Position numbers and translations under genes: made by a program. The notes beneath the pieces were generated by a model, which saw only the letters and a list, made by a program, of their open reading frames with translations, had not been told where the DNA came from and did no database searches. From positions 1 to 34,660 of the forward strand of contig JAHEGM010000002.1 of assembly GCA_024645105.1 (NCBI GenBank): a stretch of 34,660 bases of DNA, in the 5' to 3' direction. Origin of the DNA: Rhodoluna sp. (GTDB taxonomy: Bacteria; Actinomycetota; Actinomycetes; Actinomycetales; Microbacteriaceae). Shown piece after piece: positions 17,097 through 23,363 of this stretch (its first letter is position 1; every line of letters starts with the position of its first letter).

Positions 17097-18983
17097 ATGG
17101 GTCTTAGTAATGCCCGGAACGGTATAAATCGGATCGGTGGGGGCGTCGAGAGGTATCAATTGGCTAAGAAAGATGTAGAGGCTAAAAACGGCAAGAAGCG
17201 TAGCGGCTTGCTCTCAAGTCTTTTGCGCGGCTCAAGTGATAAATCATCGGGAGAAAAAACCTCTAAAGCTAAGGAAACTCCAGCCATTTCTGCTTCAACT
17301 GCAAAAAAGACAACCGCTAAGCCTGCTGGTGCCAAGCCAGCCGCAAAGACTTCAGCAAAGCCAGTGGTGAAATCAGCTGCTAAGCCAGCCGCCAAGGCAC
17401 CCGCAAAGCCTGCCGCCAAAGCGGCAACCAAGGCACCCGCAAAGACCACTGCAAAACCAGCCGCAAAGCCAGTAGTTAAAGCGGCCGCAAAGGCTCCTGC
17501 AAAGGCTCCTGCAAAGTCTGCTGCAAAGCCTGTTGCCAAGACAGCAGCAAAACCTGCCGCCAAGTCAGCTGCTAAGCCAGTTGCCAAGTCAGCTGCAAAA
17601 CCTGCCGCCAAGTCAGCTGCCAAAACTTCAGCCAAGCCTGCGGCTAAAAGTCCTACCAAGGTGGCTACCAAAACCACCAAGTCACCTGCTAAATCTGTGG
17701 CAAAACCTGCCGCCAAGTCGGCAGTAAAGGTCGCTGCCAAAGCCAACGCAAAGGCGCCCGTAAAGACTCCTGCTGCAAAGGGTAAGGCTGCTGCTGTTCC
17801 TGCAAGCAAGGCCAAACCTGCGAAAGCCAGCAAACTACCAAAGGGTTTGGCTGATGACGATGAAGAACTTGAAGACGATGCCGATCTAGATTCGGTTGAA
17901 GAAATAGTCGCTGAAGCTGCTGCGGTTGTTGACATCGTTGCGGTTGACGAAGAACTTCCTGAGGAAGAGCCAGAAGACGACAAGAGCAAAGAAATTGAAA
18001 ACCTTGGCGGAATGGTTCTTTCGAACCGCGAGGAAGACGATATTCCTGCGCAAACCACAACCATCACGGGAGCAACTGCCGACCCTGTTAAGGATTACCT
18101 AAAGCAGATCGGAAAGGTTGCCCTTCTAAATGCGGAGCTTGAGGTTGAGCTTGCAAAACGTATTGAAGCTGGTCTATTCGCAGAAGAAAAGCTAGCCACC
18201 GATAAAAAGATTTCTCGTGATGTTGAGCGTGACCTCAAATGGGTTGTCAAAGACGGACAGCGTGCAAAGAGTCACCTTCTAGAAGCAAACCTTCGCTTGG
18301 TAGTTAGCCTTGCAAAACGCTACACCGGCCGCGGCATGCAATTTCTTGACCTGATCCAAGAAGGAAACCTAGGTCTAATTCGCGCTGTTGAGAAGTTTGA
18401 CTACACAAAGGGCTATAAGTTCTCGACCTATGCAACTTGGTGGATTCGCCAAGCCATTACTCGTGCAATGGCAGACCAGGCTCGCACCATTCGTATTCCT
18501 GTTCACATGGTTGAGGTAATTAATAAGCTTGCCCGTGTTCAGCGTCAGCTACTGCAGGACCTTGGTCGCGAACCTACCCCTGAGGAACTAGCCCGCGAGT
18601 TGGATATGACTCCTGAGAAGGTTGTTGAAGTTCAAAAGTACGGTCGCGAGCCAATCTCATTGTCGACACCTCTTGGTGAAGACGGAGATAGCGAGTTCGG
18701 TGACCTCATTGAAGATACCGAAGCGGTTGTTCCTGCCGACGCTGTTGGCTTCACAATGCTTCAGCGCGAGTTAGAAAGAATTCTTGACTCGTTGCACCCA
18801 CGCGAAGCTGGAGTTATTCGCAGCAGGTTTGGGCTTGGTGATGGCGTGCAAAAGACTCTTGACCAAATTGGTGAGGAATTTGGTGTGACTCGTGAGCGAA
18901 TCCGCCAAATCGAATCAAAAACTATGTCTAAGTTGCGCCACCCATCTCGTTCCCAGATGCTCCGCGATTACCTAGAGAACTAA
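17097..18983 (+). CDS. rpoD: Principal RNA polymerase sigma factor (SigA/RpoD) with Lys-Ala repeat N-terminus
   Basis: This is the housekeeping sigma-70 factor, 628 residues. Order: a short lead; a Lys/Ala/Pro-rich repeat (about residues 69-245, units such as PAAK and SAAKPVAK); an acidic segment ([14 protein letters not shown]); region 1.2 ([11 protein letters not shown]); region 2 with [10 protein letters not shown]; region 3; and region 4.2 with [12 protein letters not shown]. All DNA- and core-binding regions are intact. The basic tail looks like the C-terminal tail of actinobacterial HU or histone H1 and could bind DNA non-specifically. The ATG at 17097 has GAGGGA upstream. A TTG at 17160 (reading LAKKDVEAK) with GAGAGG before it is an alternative start. 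murT follows after 9 bp. Confidence 0.95.
17301..17830 (+). repeat. Degenerate Lys-Ala-Pro coding repeat within rpoD
   Basis: Imperfect tandem repeats of about 12-24 bp encode AAKP, SAAK and APAK units. The codons vary (gcc/gct/gca, aag/aaa) while the protein pattern holds, so this is protein-level low complexity and not a CRISPR or a recent DNA duplication. Confidence 0.85.
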
Positions 18984-18992: not shown

Positions 18993-20261
18993 GTGTTTTA
19001 CGTACCGGCAATCCTGATTGGGCGCATGGTGCGAATCGCTGTGAGGCTGGTTCGACCGGGTGGCGGTTCTGCGCTGCCAGGTCTGGTTCTTAGCAAGATA
19101 GCGCCTGGGCTTTTAGTAAAAACCATGGCTTCCTTTCCCGATGGCTTGGTAGTTGTTACCGGTTCCGCTGGCAAGTCAACTACAACCAAAATGCTGGTGG
19201 CAATTGCCCGCGCCCATGGAAAGAATGTTTTCACAAATCCATCAACCGCGAATATTGCACAGGGTTTCTATTCTTCAATCATCGAGCGATCAAACATTTT
19301 CGGAAAGATTCAGGGCGATGTTGCAATTCTTGAAATGGATGAAGGTCACGCCGCCGAAATCACTAAGAAAATCAGTCCACGACAAGTCACCTTGCTGAAT
19401 GTGCTTGAAGATCAGCTTGACAGATTTGTAGATCCGGCTGTGGTTCGAGAAAAACTTTTAATGGTTGCCGCAAAAGCCAAAAGCGCTCTGGTTCTAAACG
19501 CTGACGACCAAAATATTCTTTTGATTGATAAAGAAATGGATTCCAAGCCCGTGAGTTGGTTTGGTGTGAAGTCATCTCTGATTTCAAATACTGAGCACGG
19601 GCTTGGTAACGCTCCTACTTATCTAGCCGAGCTTTCAAGGCCATTAGTGCAAACTGAAGTAATTGAGCAGTCGCCTAAAAAAACTACCGTTCGGGTTCTT
19701 GATGAAGACGTTTCTTTTGCTCTGCCTAATAGAGGCATTCACTTTGCACTTGATGCTGCTGCCGCCATCGAGAGCGCGCGCAGGTACCTGGGTGAAAACT
19801 TTATCCCTGAGCTGGCAGCACGTACATTGGAAGAACTTCCTCCAGTTTTTGCAAGGGGTGAAATCACGACCGTAAATGGCGTGGACGTTGAGTTCATTCT
19901 GGTTCAGAACCCAATGAGCTTTCAGCTGAACCTGGATAACCTGCCGCCAGACCAAGAGCAGGTGATGGTAGCAATTGGTAGAGATGTGCACGATCCCTCA
20001 TGGCTATGGACAGTAGACATGAAAAACATGCCAGCTATAGATATCGTCACCGGATTTAATTATGCAGAGATGGCTCTTCGACTTGCCTACGATGAAATTC
20101 CAGTTGGTGAAGTTGTTCCCGAATTAGAGGATGCTTTAGCCAAGTTCTTTGGTCTACCGGCCCCAAAGAGTGGCCGCAGAACCGTAATCTTCTCTGCTGA
20201 CGCCATGCGAAGAACACGTCGAGCCCTTGGCTTTGTTGACCCTGAGGCGGTTGAACGATGA
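18993..20261 (+). CDS. murT: MurT-like Mur ligase domain protein, cysteine-free
   Basis: MurT, with GatD, normally amidates the alpha-carboxyl of D-iGlu in lipid II to give D-isoglutamine. The 422-residue protein has a membrane-proximal basic N-terminus, a Mur-ligase P-loop (TGSAGKSTTTK, residues 56-66), the central domain (TNPSTANIAQG; EMDEGH), and a C-terminal DUF1727 domain with SWLWTVD near 346-352. The Cys4 zinc ribbon usual in the middle of MurT is absent: after SWFG (188-191) there is a short Cys-free loop, and the whole protein has no cysteine. The NDN part of the usual C-terminal motif before SWLWD also seems missing. The start is GTG. Its TGA stop overlaps the gatD ATG (ATGA), so the two are translationally coupled. 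Amidating activity is doubtful; see findings. Confidence 0.88.
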   Translation: MFYVPAILIGRMVRIAVRLVRPGGGSALPGLVLSKIAPGLLVKTMASFPDGLVVVTGSAGKSTTTKMLVAIARAHGKNVFTNPSTANIAQGFYSSIIERSNIFGKIQGDVAILEMDEGHAAEITKKISPRQVTLLNVLEDQLDRFVDPAVVREKLLMVAAKAKSALVLNADDQNILLIDKEMDSKPVSWFGVKSSLISNTEHGLGNAPTYLAELSRPLVQTEVIEQSPKKTTVRVLDEDVSFALPNRGIHFALDAAAAIESARRYLGENFIPELAARTLEELPPVFARGEITTVNGVDVEFILVQNPMSFQLNLDNLPPDQEQVMVAIGRDVHDPSWLWTVDMKNMPAIDIVTGFNYAEMALRLAYDEIPVGEVVPELEDALAKFFGLPAPKSGRRTVIFSADAMRRTRRALGFVDPEAVER

Positions 20262-20917
20262 AGTTGAAGATTGCCTCACTATTCCCAGAGCACCTAGATC
20301 TCAATGGTGACCAGGGCAACATGAAGGTTGCCGTCAAACGTCTTGAATGGTTCGGCCACGAGGCTTCGCTATATGCCGTTAGCAAAGGGGAGTCAATTCC
20401 GCCTGACACAGATCTTATCTTTCTGGGGCACGGCTCGCTTGCCGCGTGGGCTGACCTCGAAGAACACTTACATCTGCTGTTGGCACACACCAAGCAGCTA
20501 ATTGCAGGCGGAACAGCTTTCATGGCTGTTGCCAGCGGCTACGAGCGAGCAATTCAGTTCGGCATCTTCCCTCAAAATTTGAAGCGAGTTGAAAGAGTTT
20601 CTAAATTCCACATTGAAGAATCTCATGGCTTAGAAGTTCTTGGTTATCTAAACGCCGCGACGGATGCACCAGTAATTCAAAAGAATGCCTTGGTTCTTGG
20701 CACTCAATTGCACGGGCCTTTCTTTGCGAAAAATCCCGAGTATGCAGACATGTATTTGTCAAAGATACTTTCCACAAAATTAAATTTGGCAAGCCTCGGT
20801 GAGGCACCCACTGAATCTTTGATGACACCAACCACAGGCTTAAAGCACAATGTCGACCGAGTGGCCGACATTGTTAAGGCTGTGCGGGATCTTGAAAAAG
20901 ATTTAGCGAGCGAGTAG
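20258..20917 (+). CDS. gatD: GatD-like class I amidotransferase with degenerate glutaminase site
   Basis: GatD is the CobB/CobQ-type glutaminase that feeds ammonia to MurT. The 219-residue protein keeps family landmarks: the N-terminal GDQGNMKVAVKRLEW, and LHGPFFAKNP with the active-site His152. The nucleophile elbow, normally CGGYQ, reads ASGYE (residues 92-96, codons from 20531), so the catalytic cysteine is alanine. The GGGQD-type motif reads GHGSL (57-61). The segment corresponding to the ENH..G.T region is shortened. There is no cysteine anywhere. The frame is intact, coupled to murT, and the fold residues are conserved, arguing for selection on a non-glutaminase role. It overlaps the convergent DUF7455 gene by 15 bp at the 3' ends. 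Confidence 0.85.
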   Translation: MKLKIASLFPEHLDLNGDQGNMKVAVKRLEWFGHEASLYAVSKGESIPPDTDLIFLGHGSLAAWADLEEHLHLLLAHTKQLIAGGTAFMAVASGYERAIQFGIFPQNLKRVERVSKFHIEESHGLEVLGYLNAATDAPVIQKNALVLGTQLHGPFFAKNPEYADMYLSKILSTKLNLASLGEAPTESLMTPTTGLKHNVDRVADIVKAVRDLEKDLASE

Positions 20918-21130
20918 CTTCTCTGTCTCGTCGTGCCAAGAAACGGCAATTGGCTCAAGCTTGGCCTTTTTTTCATTGCCGTGGTGGGAGCAAAACATCA
21001 GTTCACCGGTACTTAGGGCAACCCGGATGTAGGCTTGTGCGCCACACACGTCGCAGCGATCGGAAGCGTTTAGCTCCGGTGCCTGGTTGATTTCGACGTC
21101 TTGTTCGACTGCCTCATTGATTGGTTGCAT
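20903..21130 (-). CDS. Small DUF7455 zinc-ribbon-like protein
   Basis: A 75-residue protein whose core (ASDRCDVCGAQAYIRV, then GELMFCSHHGNE and SWHDET) matches the small actinobacterial DUF7455 family, nearly always found near rpoD and parE. CxxC followed by CxxH suggests bound zinc. The function is unknown. The frame extends to 21193, but the ATG at 21130 (MQPINEAVEQ) has AAAGG upstream and fits family length. A possible -10 (TAGGGT, minus strand, 21192-21197) would give a leader of about 60 nt. Confidence 0.85.
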   Translation of the reverse strand: MQPINEAVEQDVEINQAPELNASDRCDVCGAQAYIRVALSTGELMFCSHHGNEKKAKLEPIAVSWHDETEKLLAR

Positions 21131-21269
21131 GAGTAATGCCTTTCTTTCACTCAATCTCAACACAGGAAACTGTAAAAAAGTCCTTATTGGCACCCTATTT
21201 CGCTAACTGCGAATCAAGGCCATATCCTCGTTCATCCGTGTCAGAGCCTGCCAATTGCCCGCTTACGGT

Positions 21270-21281: not shown

Positions 21282-23363
21282 GTGCCAAACAATGACTATT
21301 CAGCTAGACACCTCTCTGTTTTAGAGGGCCTCGAGGCCGTTCGCAAGCGCCCGGGTATGTACATAGGTTCCACTGACAGTCGTGGTCTGATGCACTGTCT
21401 TTGGGAAATTATCGATAACTCGGTTGATGAAGCTCTTGCTGGACACGGAAACCGAATCGAAGTCGTCTTGCACAAGGACGGAAGCGTTGAGGTAACCGAT
21501 AAAGCTCGAGGTATTCCAGTAGACATTGAGCCAAAAACAGGTCTCAGCGGCGTTGAAGTTGTCTTTACCAAGTTGCATGCCGGAGGAAAATTTGGATCCG
21601 GTTCTTATGCGGCTTCAGGTGGTTTGCACGGTGTCGGTGCCTCCGTAGTAAATGCCTTGTCCCAAAGACTGGATGTTGAAGTTGATCGTGGCGGTAAAAC
21701 CTACGCAATGTCATTCCGCAGGGGAGAGCCCGGCATCTTCGACGACAAAAAGGGAATCAAGCCAGATAACCCATTCAAGCCATTCGAAGATGGTTCAGTG
21801 CTTCGCGAGGTTGGCAAGGTTGGCAAGAACGTCACCGGCACCCGAGTGCGCTACTGGGTAGACCCTCAGATTTTCATTAAAGACGCGGTCTTCGCCCTAG
21901 AGGAGCTAGCCGCAAGGGCTAGGCAGACTGCCTTTCTAGTTCCAGGGCTTTCGCTAGGTATCAACGATCAGCGTGAGGGTAAGGTCAACAAGCAGGAATT
22001 CAAGTTTGACGGCGGAATCATTGAATATGCCGAATATCTGGCCAAGGACCCGGCGCTTACCTCAACCTGGCGTTTGTCTGGCTCTGGTGCCTTTACTGAG
22101 ACGGTTCCAGTCTTAGATGAAAAAGGCAACATGGTCTCAAAGGATGTCGAGCGAAACTGTGAAGTCGACATCGCCGTTCGTTGGGGCACCGGCTACGACA
22201 CAGAAATCAAGTCTTATGTAAACATCATTGCGACTCCAAAGGGTGGAACCCACATTCAAGGTTTCGAGCAGTCTTTGCTGAAGACTCTTAGGTCACAAAT
22301 TGACGCGGTTGCAAGAAAGCTTAAGGTCGGCAACGACAAGGTTGAAAAAGAAGATATTCTTGCAGGTCTCACCGCGGTTGTTACCGTGCGATTGGCCGAG
22401 CCTCAGTTTGAAGGACAGACAAAAGAAATTCTTGGCACGCCAGCTGTCAAAAATATCGTTGCAAACGTCGTCGCTAAATCTCTTGCCGCAAGATTCTCAA
22501 GCAGTAAGCGCGATGACAAAGCTCAATCTGCCTTGCTTTTGGAAAAAGTTGTTGCGGAGATGAAATCCAGAATTTCCGCAAGAAGTCACAAGGAAACCCA
22601 ACGCCGCAAAAATGCTCTTGAGAGCAGCTCTTTGCCAACAAAGCTGGTTGACTGCCGCACCCAAGAGACTTCTGGATCAGAACTGTTCATCGTTGAGGGT
22701 GACTCTGCTTTGGGCACTGCCAAACTGGCTCGCGACAGCGAGTTCCAGGCACTTCTTCCGATTCGCGGAAAAATTCTGAATGTTCAGAAGGCCTCTATTT
22801 CAGACATGCTTTCGAATACCGAGTGCGCTTCCATCATCCAGGTGATTGGAGCAGGCTCTGGTAGAAGTTTTGATCTCGATGCCGCAAGGTACGGAAAAAT
22901 AATTTTGATGTCAGATGCCGACGTAGACGGTGCACACATTCGAACCTTGCTGCTCACTCTGTTCTTCCGCTATATGCGTCCACTGGTTGAGGCTGGAAGA
23001 GTTTATGCGGCTGTTCCGCCACTGCACAGGGTTGAAGTCGTGAACGCCGGCTCAAAGGCTAACGAAGTTATTTACACATATTCGCAGGCGGAGCTTGAAG
23101 AGTTACTAAAGAAGCTCGAGAAGGCTGGAAAGCGCTACAAAGAACCAATTCAGCGCTACAAGGGCCTGGGCGAGATGGATGCAGACCAGCTCGCTGAAAC
23201 AACTATGGACAAAAACGCCAGAAGCTTGAGGCGAGTTCGCGTTGAAGATGCGGCTGCTGCCGAAACTGTCTTCGAGCTTCTCATGGGTAATGAAGTTGCT
23301 CCTAGGCGAGATTTTATTATTGACTCGGCCGATGGCTTCGAACGCGAAAGAATTGACGCCTAA
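21282..23363 (+). CDS. parE: DNA topoisomerase IV subunit B (GyrB-like)
   Basis: This is the ATPase subunit of a type IIA topoisomerase. The 693 residues include the GHKL ATPase domain (DNSVDEALAG; GGLHGVGASVVN), the transducer domain, and the Toprim domain with EGDSALG and DADVDGAHIRTL. It is called ParE and not GyrB because its partner gene is the convergent parC, and because a second gyrA/gyrB-like pair next to rpoD is the usual actinobacterial arrangement, the true gyrase genes lying near dnaA. The GTG start is fixed by the family N-terminus (YSARHLSVLEGLEAVRKRPGM) and a -10 box 6 nt upstream. The stop is 12 bp from the parC stop. Confidence 0.92.
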   Translation: MPNNDYSARHLSVLEGLEAVRKRPGMYIGSTDSRGLMHCLWEIIDNSVDEALAGHGNRIEVVLHKDGSVEVTDKARGIPVDIEPKTGLSGVEVVFTKLHAGGKFGSGSYAASGGLHGVGASVVNALSQRLDVEVDRGGKTYAMSFRRGEPGIFDDKKGIKPDNPFKPFEDGSVLREVGKVGKNVTGTRVRYWVDPQIFIKDAVFALEELAARARQTAFLVPGLSLGINDQREGKVNKQEFKFDGGIIEYAEYLAKDPALTSTWRLSGSGAFTETVPVLDEKGNMVSKDVERNCEVDIAVRWGTGYDTEIKSYVNIIATPKGGTHIQGFEQSLLKTLRSQIDAVARKLKVGNDKVEKEDILAGLTAVVTVRLAEPQFEGQTKEILGTPAVKNIVANVVAKSLAARFSSSKRDDKAQSALLLEKVVAEMKSRISARSHKETQRRKNALESSSLPTKLVDCRTQETSGSELFIVEGDSALGTAKLARDSEFQALLPIRGKILNVQKASISDMLSNTECASIIQVIGAGSGRSFDLDAARYGKIILMSDADVDGAHIRTLLLTLFFRYMRPLVEAGRVYAAVPPLHRVEVVNAGSKANEVIYTYSQAELEELLKKLEKAGKRYKEPIQRYKGLGEMDADQLAETTMDKNARSLRRVRVEDAAAAETVFELLMGNEVAPRRDFIIDSADGFERERIDA

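Follow-up and report, generated by a model that had tools for sequence, protein, structure and literature searches.

The window analysed here is a stretch of 34,660 nucleotides from Rhodoluna sp., a lake bacterium of the Microbacteriaceae (assembly GCA_024645105.1, contig JAHEGM010000002.1). It carries a MurT/GatD gene pair in which the GatD protein lacks the cysteine nucleophile of its glutaminase site. This loss of Cys is wider than the window, occurring in most sampled Microbacteriaceae, and it goes together with changes in the MurT partner. The features of the pair are the following.

18993..20261, forward strand: murT homologue, encoding a Mur-ligase-type partner of 422 residues from a putative GTG start, with the ADG loop lost and S309-x-Q-x-N-x-D315 present
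20258..20261, forward strand: ATGA in which the stop of murT and the start of gatD overlap
20258..20917, forward strand: gatD homologue, encoding 219 residues without Cys, with Ala92 at the nucleophile position, GHG at the GGG oxyanion motif, and His152 kept
20531..20533, forward strand: the gcc codon of Ala92, at the site of the GatD nucleophile

The gatD frame has no internal stops, and its 219-residue product is cysteine-free. The nucleophile elbow reads VASGYE, where Cys-bearing GatDs from the same order read [IV]CG[LSM]YQ, so that Ala92 stands at the position of the Cys in a CGGYQ-type elbow. GHGSL occupies the place of the GGGQD oxyanion motif and does not fit the pattern GGG(Q/E)D, and the ENH.. 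stretch that follows GY is reduced in length. The catalytic His, that of the HGP motif, is retained as His152 (LHGP). A preceding interpretation made from the DNA letters by themselves, here called the sequence-only reading, had described the Ala codon at 20531, the GHGSL motif with a shortened ENH.. region, the unbroken frame without Cys but with His152, and the ATGA coupling of the two genes. Translation and inspection of the locus confirm each of these, with the murT stop at 20261 overlapping the ATG of gatD.

An AlphaFold2 (AF2) model of the window GatD has a mean predicted local distance difference test score (pLDDT) of 92.6. Its best nine matches in the PDB are all GatD chains (E 1.5e-11 to 2e-10), and the model and these matches show the class I glutamine amidotransferase fold. 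The protein scores below the NCBIfam equivalog cut-offs, with 34.9 versus 450 bits for NF052463 and 22.6 versus 400 bits for NF045636. It is almost certainly a dead glutaminase, and glutamine-dependent amidation of lipid II by the window pair is predicted to be absent.

The window MurT retains the P-loop, the acceptor residue Asn87, the group Glu114, Asp116 and Glu117, and Asp334, the Asp of the DxSW motif that faces GatD; the full ADGxDxSW loop is missing. Mur_ligase_M and MurT_C both pass their Pfam cut-offs, identifying the Mur ligase central domain with its P-loop and the MurT C-terminal domain. Scores against the NCBIfam equivalog models NF045635 (87.7 bits) and NF052464 (84.2 bits) fall below the cut-off of 800 bits. 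The structural model (mean pLDDT 92.5) has MurT chains at PDB ranks 1-11, followed by chains of the pseudomurein ligase pMur, MurF and MurD among others. Residues 6-196 align with residues 6-188 of Staphylococcus aureus MurT, and in this alignment the window protein shows no N-terminal uridine diphosphate (UDP)-binding domain of the kind found in MurC-F; the legend of a published figure likewise describes MurT as lacking that domain. The Cys4 zinc ribbon is also absent, because the protein contains no Cys. Loss of the ribbon was considered as a sign of repurposing and dropped: several MurTs of the same order that are paired with Cys-bearing GatDs lack it as well, and the ribbon is therefore not diagnostic.

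Of 199 Microbacteriaceae genomes searched, 156 gave a GatD match with an E value of 1e-12 or below, and 152 loci were read. The nucleophilic Cys is absent from 130 of the 152 (Gly in 90, Ala in 23, Ser in 7, Asn in 4, Thr in 3, His in 3) and kept in 22, so that the family is not Cys-less throughout. Within the genus itself, the three single-contig genomes of R. lacicola (G010), G092 and G154 have Ala, Asn and Asn at the site. These genomes, the 130 family loci and the low dN/dS values given below rule out sequencing error or a lone pseudogene; the sequence-only reading had argued against error on the basis of the window, and in this it was right. The change is not confined to the GatD of the window but characterises an entire derived clade of MurT/GatD pairs in the family. 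The finding that would have refuted the sequence-only reading, CGGYQ kept in close relatives, was not made in the three genomes of the genus, although the 22 loci elsewhere in the family do have the Cys.

Sorted by pair, 121 of the 199 genomes have only the derived, Cys-less type and 18 only the canonical, Cys-bearing type, while four have both, 12 have a second Cys-less class, here of THN type, described below (nine of the 12 being assigned by score and not by motif reading), and 44 have none or remain unclassified. Some match is seen in no fewer than eight of the 44: to GatD in G027, G053 and G123, to the second class in G005, and to MurT in G038, G081, G144 and G196. The others seem to be without any MurT/GatD pair. 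Leifsonia aquatica carries a derived Cys-less pair and a canonical Cys pair (L224, L228).

A named sample comprised the 80 best among 217 confirmed loci, the majority of which carry the labels of Microbacteriaceae genera. The nucleophile is never Cys in its 78 readable GatDs (Gly 65, Ala 9, Ser 2, Asn 2), which is not an unbiased rate for the family because the loci were found through derived-class MurT motifs, by which canonical pairs are not easily caught. The two missing are L169, where MurT has no adjacent GatD, and L195, at a contig edge. The catalytic His is kept in 45 of the 78. Several loci, in this sample and elsewhere, have peculiarities of their own. Naasia lichenicola (L169, L227) has a derived MurT without GatD at the usual place, and its derived GatD lies elsewhere in the genome. 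L352, from a genome of 0.93 Mb (G015, 927,303 bp) that is presumably that of Tropheryma whipplei, has a GatD with Ser at the nucleophile site. L147 is labelled Auritidibacter (Micrococcaceae), and its MurT groups with Rhodoluna in the tree described below; the assembly is probably mislabelled.

Outside the family, Cys is the rule. Across six other families of the order, every one of the 30 best-scoring loci has [IV]CG[LSM]YQ and GGGQD. In a draw across the phylum, one reading covered 26 loci from outside the family and gave Cys in 24; of the other two, L078 was read as far as the Cys and no further, and L073 was unread because its frame was wrong. Another reading gave Cys in 37 of 47 GatD-like loci; the ten without it are L131 (Ser), L132 and eight members of the second Cys-less class (TGN). 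L131, which is not from the family, is an isolated case of Ser for Cys in a GatD beside a MurT with the canonical motif ADGTDVSW, either a recent change or an error.

The second Cys-less class is well conserved in itself, with T[HG]N or SGN at the elbow, GGMTExxQ or LGPLTExxQ, and Ile or Leu in place of His (L133-L140, L357-L359, L380-L391). Its members come from eight Microbacteriaceae genera, where three loci were read and the others assigned by score, and from genomes beyond the family that are presumed to be Coriobacteriia. The DxSW motif was not seen in the aligned examples of its MurTs. In L139 and L140, a single open frame of 738 codons holds both the MurT and the GatD match of this class, and the two genes seem to be naturally fused.

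Change in GatD is closely matched by change in MurT. Among 200 distinct MurT plus GatD pairs, a set from which a C-terminal coverage filter left out the THN-type MurTs, the ADGxDxSW-type MurT motif, with small variations allowed, is present in 86 of 86 pairs with Cys and absent from 113 of 114 pairs without it, the window included. The lone Cys-less pair that keeps it is L131, and the Cys-less pairs L010 and L185 have neither form of the MurT motif. According to an excerpted structural report on S. aureus, the GatD triad receives its last member from this motif, namely the Asp, and the Asn mutant is severely reduced in activity or inactive (PMC6113224).

We compared residues between 49 derived and 50 canonical MurTs and GatDs, most of the derived MurTs being selected by motif. 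Both MurT classes keep the P-loop residues G60, K61, T63 and T64 as well as N87, E114, D116, E117, D140, R144, R288 and D334. The derived MurTs have lost Arg139, Asn329, the Ala and Gly of ADG, Arg356, Asp359 and Thr403, and are changed at Q90, near the acceptor motif, and at D254, in the central domain. They have gained Ser309, Gln311, Asn313 and Asp315, each in 98-100% of the 49. A recount used 39 distinct derived MurTs to which GatD queries had led, and which were hence not selected by motif; it gave 37, 37, 38 and 36, respectively, of 38 readable. The region from S309 to D315 presumably corresponds to the start of the C-terminal domain, some of whose residues touch the incoming amino acid in MurD. 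In GatD, Cys92, Gly58, Asp61, Gln64 and Gln96 are each found in 100% of the 50 canonical proteins; the Cys is lost in all 49 derived proteins, and the other four are kept only in a minority. The clade with joint loss of Cys and GGGQD that the sequence-only reading had predicted is thus present in this alignment. Most of the positions lost in derived GatD belong to the glutaminase site, and those kept (Gly17, Asp18, Asn21, Gly153, Asn159, Pro160 and others) form no new catalytic set. Because almost no new conserved residues have been gained, derived GatD is more likely to act as a structural partner than as a new enzyme.

A tree of 114 MurTs was built by a quick maximum-likelihood method, with support only from the Shimodaira-Hasegawa-like approximate likelihood ratio test (SH-aLRT). 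The 49 derived MurTs form one side of a branch with support 100, and 14 MurTs of the second class lie on another branch with support 95. Canonical MurTs from Microbacteriaceae fall among those of other families. The ratio of nonsynonymous to synonymous substitution rates (dN/dS) was 0.07-0.21 for derived gatD and 0.03-0.15 for derived murT in 14 of 16 pairs of relatives; of the other two pairs, one gave 0.48 and 0.46 and one had saturated dS. Both genes are under purifying selection. The sequence-only reading had proposed a retained GatD with a new role. Selection and the clade bear out the retention, and the role itself stays conditional in what follows.

The surroundings of the pair are fixed as well. 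Three further features are listed here, of which the first two are not part of the pair.

17097..18983, forward strand: sigA-type sigma factor gene, directly 5' of murT, a conserved neighbour
21282..23363, forward strand: parE/gyrB-type topoisomerase gene, 3' of the pair, a conserved neighbour
20903-21193, reverse strand: small open reading frame with several Cys, ending within the 3' end of gatD

Of 78 named loci, 70 have the murT stop within a four-base NTGA overlap. Among the 71 named loci longer than 9 kb, a sigA homologue lies 5' on the same strand in all 71, and a parE homologue is present in 67, in 59 of them 3' on the same strand. The small reverse-strand open reading frame has a homologue in 62 of these 71 loci.

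A relic in decay, a pair being lost once B-type walls had made amidation needless, would agree with the 44 of 199 family genomes that have no classified pair and with the GatDs of Aquiluna-type genomes (L175, L176, L178, L212), which are only about 186-201 residues long. The low dN/dS, the well-supported clade with conserved new residues, and a locus with sigA 5' in 71 of 71 and parE in 67 of 71 of the longer named loci make this explanation highly improbable. We regard it as very unlikely, too, that the two proteins are a pseudoenzyme pair with a non-enzymatic or regulatory task, binding lipid II or other wall proteins. The near absence of new conserved residues in GatD would suit such a task, but the ATP, Mg and acceptor residues of MurT are conserved, and its dN/dS is 0.03-0.15 in 14 of 16 pairs. 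Derived GatD is probably the kept partner of an active ligase.

Microbacteriaceae are known for B-type walls. Group B walls are cross-linked from the carboxyl of D-Glu instead of from residue 3, the bridge being borne on the D-Glu alpha-carboxyl, and canonical MurT phosphorylates just this alpha-carboxyl, D-Glu being residue 2 in the stem peptide. A MurT that activates the D-Glu carboxyl, has lost its ammonia supply and has gained a conserved polar motif is a good candidate for a bridge ligase. In the mechanism we propose, derived GatD would be a glutaminase-dead, non-catalytic structural partner of a live, glutamine-independent MurT. MurT would still phosphorylate the alpha-carboxyl of D-Glu at position 2 of a lipid-linked stem peptide, the ammonia route having been dismantled in the pair, and the acyl phosphate would be attacked by another amine. 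The likeliest amine would be the amino group of the first residue of the B-type bridge, D-2,4-diaminobutyric acid (D-Dab), D-ornithine (D-Orn) or similar. We infer, from conserved and altered residues, that MurT is active, that its acceptor is unchanged and that a bridge amino acid is the nucleophile; for this last element we claim only that it is quite possible. The proposal as a whole, a dead GatD partnering a MurT that adds a bridge amino acid to the D-Glu alpha-carboxyl, is one we favour while giving it somewhat less than even credence. That an amidotransferase has in this way become an ATP-dependent ligase for amino acids, by which Microbacteriaceae load the B-type bridge, is put forward tentatively.

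A glutaminase-dead GatD can be a working partner, as the S. aureus pair demonstrates. Excerpts from the study of that pair state that neither protein is active alone, that MurT needs GatD even when ammonia is supplied, and that MurT with GatD C94G shows NH3-dependent activity at pH 8.5 and none at pH 7.5 (PMC3266927). Gly, the residue introduced in C94G, is also the commonest natural replacement of the nucleophile in derived GatD. The same experiment opens the way to the main and serious rival, an ammonia-dependent isoglutamine synthase in which the derived pair would amidate the D-Glu alpha-carboxyl with free ammonia, GatD propping MurT as C94G does at pH 8.5 (PMC3266927). Excerpted muropeptide data for Clavibacter report amidated D-Glu (PMC9603630), and the Clavibacter genomes examined have only Cys-less GatD, a combination that fits ammonia-dependent amidation and counts against our proposal. 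We nevertheless consider this rival unlikely, if the least so of those weighed here. The S. aureus reaction with ammonia was absent at pH 7.5 (PMC3266927), the missing ADG loop of MurT and its new residues S309, Q311, N313 and D315 would be left unexplained, and the carboxyl to be amidated is the one that carries the bridge in B-type walls. A canonical pair beside a derived one, as in four of the 199 genomes and in Leifsonia aquatica, would moreover be redundant.

The amine or the acceptor could also be something else, with the derived pair adding Gly or a polyamine, for example, to D-Glu, or using another carboxyl. Glycine or diamines on the D-Glu alpha-carboxyl occur in other bacteria, which lends this idea some plausibility, and the changes at Q90, near the acceptor motif, and D254, in the central domain, would be in keeping with it. 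We judge it rather improbable, as the acceptor residue Asn87 and the Mg residues of MurT are unchanged and as the available portion of the Rhodoluna description names no such group beside the B2beta wall (PMC4156110).

Published wall types, as far as excerpted sources give them, suit a pair that loads the bridge. The wall of R. lacicola MWH-Ta8 is of type B2beta with 2,4-diaminobutyric acid, yielding the fragments Gly-D-Glu and D-Ala-D-Dab, and Gly-D-Glu is called characteristic for B-type peptidoglycan (PMC4156110). The bridge in Clavibacter, of B2 type, runs from D-Glu to D-Ala, and B2 types have been published for Subtercola, Agreia and Frondihabitans. GatD is Cys-less at the loci of all four of these genera.

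FemX/FemAB enzymes and the ATP-grasp D-Asp ligase, which have unrelated folds, load cross-bridge amino acids at stem position 3. A search of R. lacicola (G010) for FemAB returned no match at E 0.001. FemAB is present in 13 of 18 canonical-only genomes and in 8 of 121 derived-only genomes (Fisher test, 2e-9) or, by genus, in 9 of 10 and 8 of 49 (Fisher test, 1.7e-5), counts in which genomes and genera share ancestry and are not phylogenetically independent. It occurs in none of the four genomes with both pairs, none of the 12 with the second class, and 9 of the remaining 44. This pattern of FemAB genes fits the proposal that the derived pair is a bridge ligase.

Besides the shared ancestry in this test and the amidated D-Glu of Clavibacter, several points weigh against that proposal. 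FemAB does occur in the 8 of 121 derived-only genomes. No classified pair was found in 44 of the 199 genomes, most of which seem to lack it, though the family has been described as B-type; the pair is therefore not the sole route to a B-type bridge. The family includes 18 canonical-only genomes, one of which (G059) is taken as Aurantimicrobium minutum, and B-type walls there would weaken the link. The second Cys-less class occurs in presumed Coriobacteriia, where Atopobium is listed as having an A-type wall in the excerpt of a review (PMC11382707). A strict one-to-one link between B-type walls and derived GatD is unsupported, given the 44 genomes and the different Cys-less class outside the family.

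In the literature searched, mostly open-access excerpts in which the older biochemistry of group B walls is not covered, no enzyme is named that loads the B-type bridge, and no paper was found on Cys-less GatD in Microbacteriaceae. If the pair does load the bridge, an open question on group B walls can be put straight to the test in vitro. Should it prove instead to be an ammonia-dependent amidase, it would be a natural amidotransferase that has dropped glutamine across most sampled members of a family. Either way, the label of glutamine-hydrolysing isoglutaminyl synthase is misleading for the derived clade.

Of known systems, the lipid II isoglutaminyl synthase MurT/GatD, with structures from S. 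aureus, Streptococcus pneumoniae and Streptococcus pyogenes, is the one with the same gene pair, gene order and folds. The window pair also shares with it the ATP, Mg and acceptor residues of MurT and the His of GatD. It differs in lacking the Cys nucleophile, the GGG motif and the ADG loop of MurT, in the shortened loop of GatD, and in the S-x-Q-x-N-x-D motif of MurT. S. aureus GatD C94G is likewise glutaminase-dead and, in the excerpted study, supports MurT with ammonia (PMC3266927); it is an engineered point change, whereas in nature a whole clade shares the loss, and both proteins of the pair have changed further in a correlated way. FemX/FemAB and the D-Asp ligase also attach bridge amino acids, but differ from the derived pair in fold and in stem position. 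MurD, MurE, MurF and the pseudomurein ligases have the ligase fold in common with the derived MurT, and an acyl phosphate attacked by the amino group of an amino acid is the chemistry proposed for it. Unlike MurD, MurE and MurF, MurT has no UDP-binding N-terminal domain and works with a GatD-type partner, and amino-acid ligation, established for those enzymes, is for the derived MurT a proposal.

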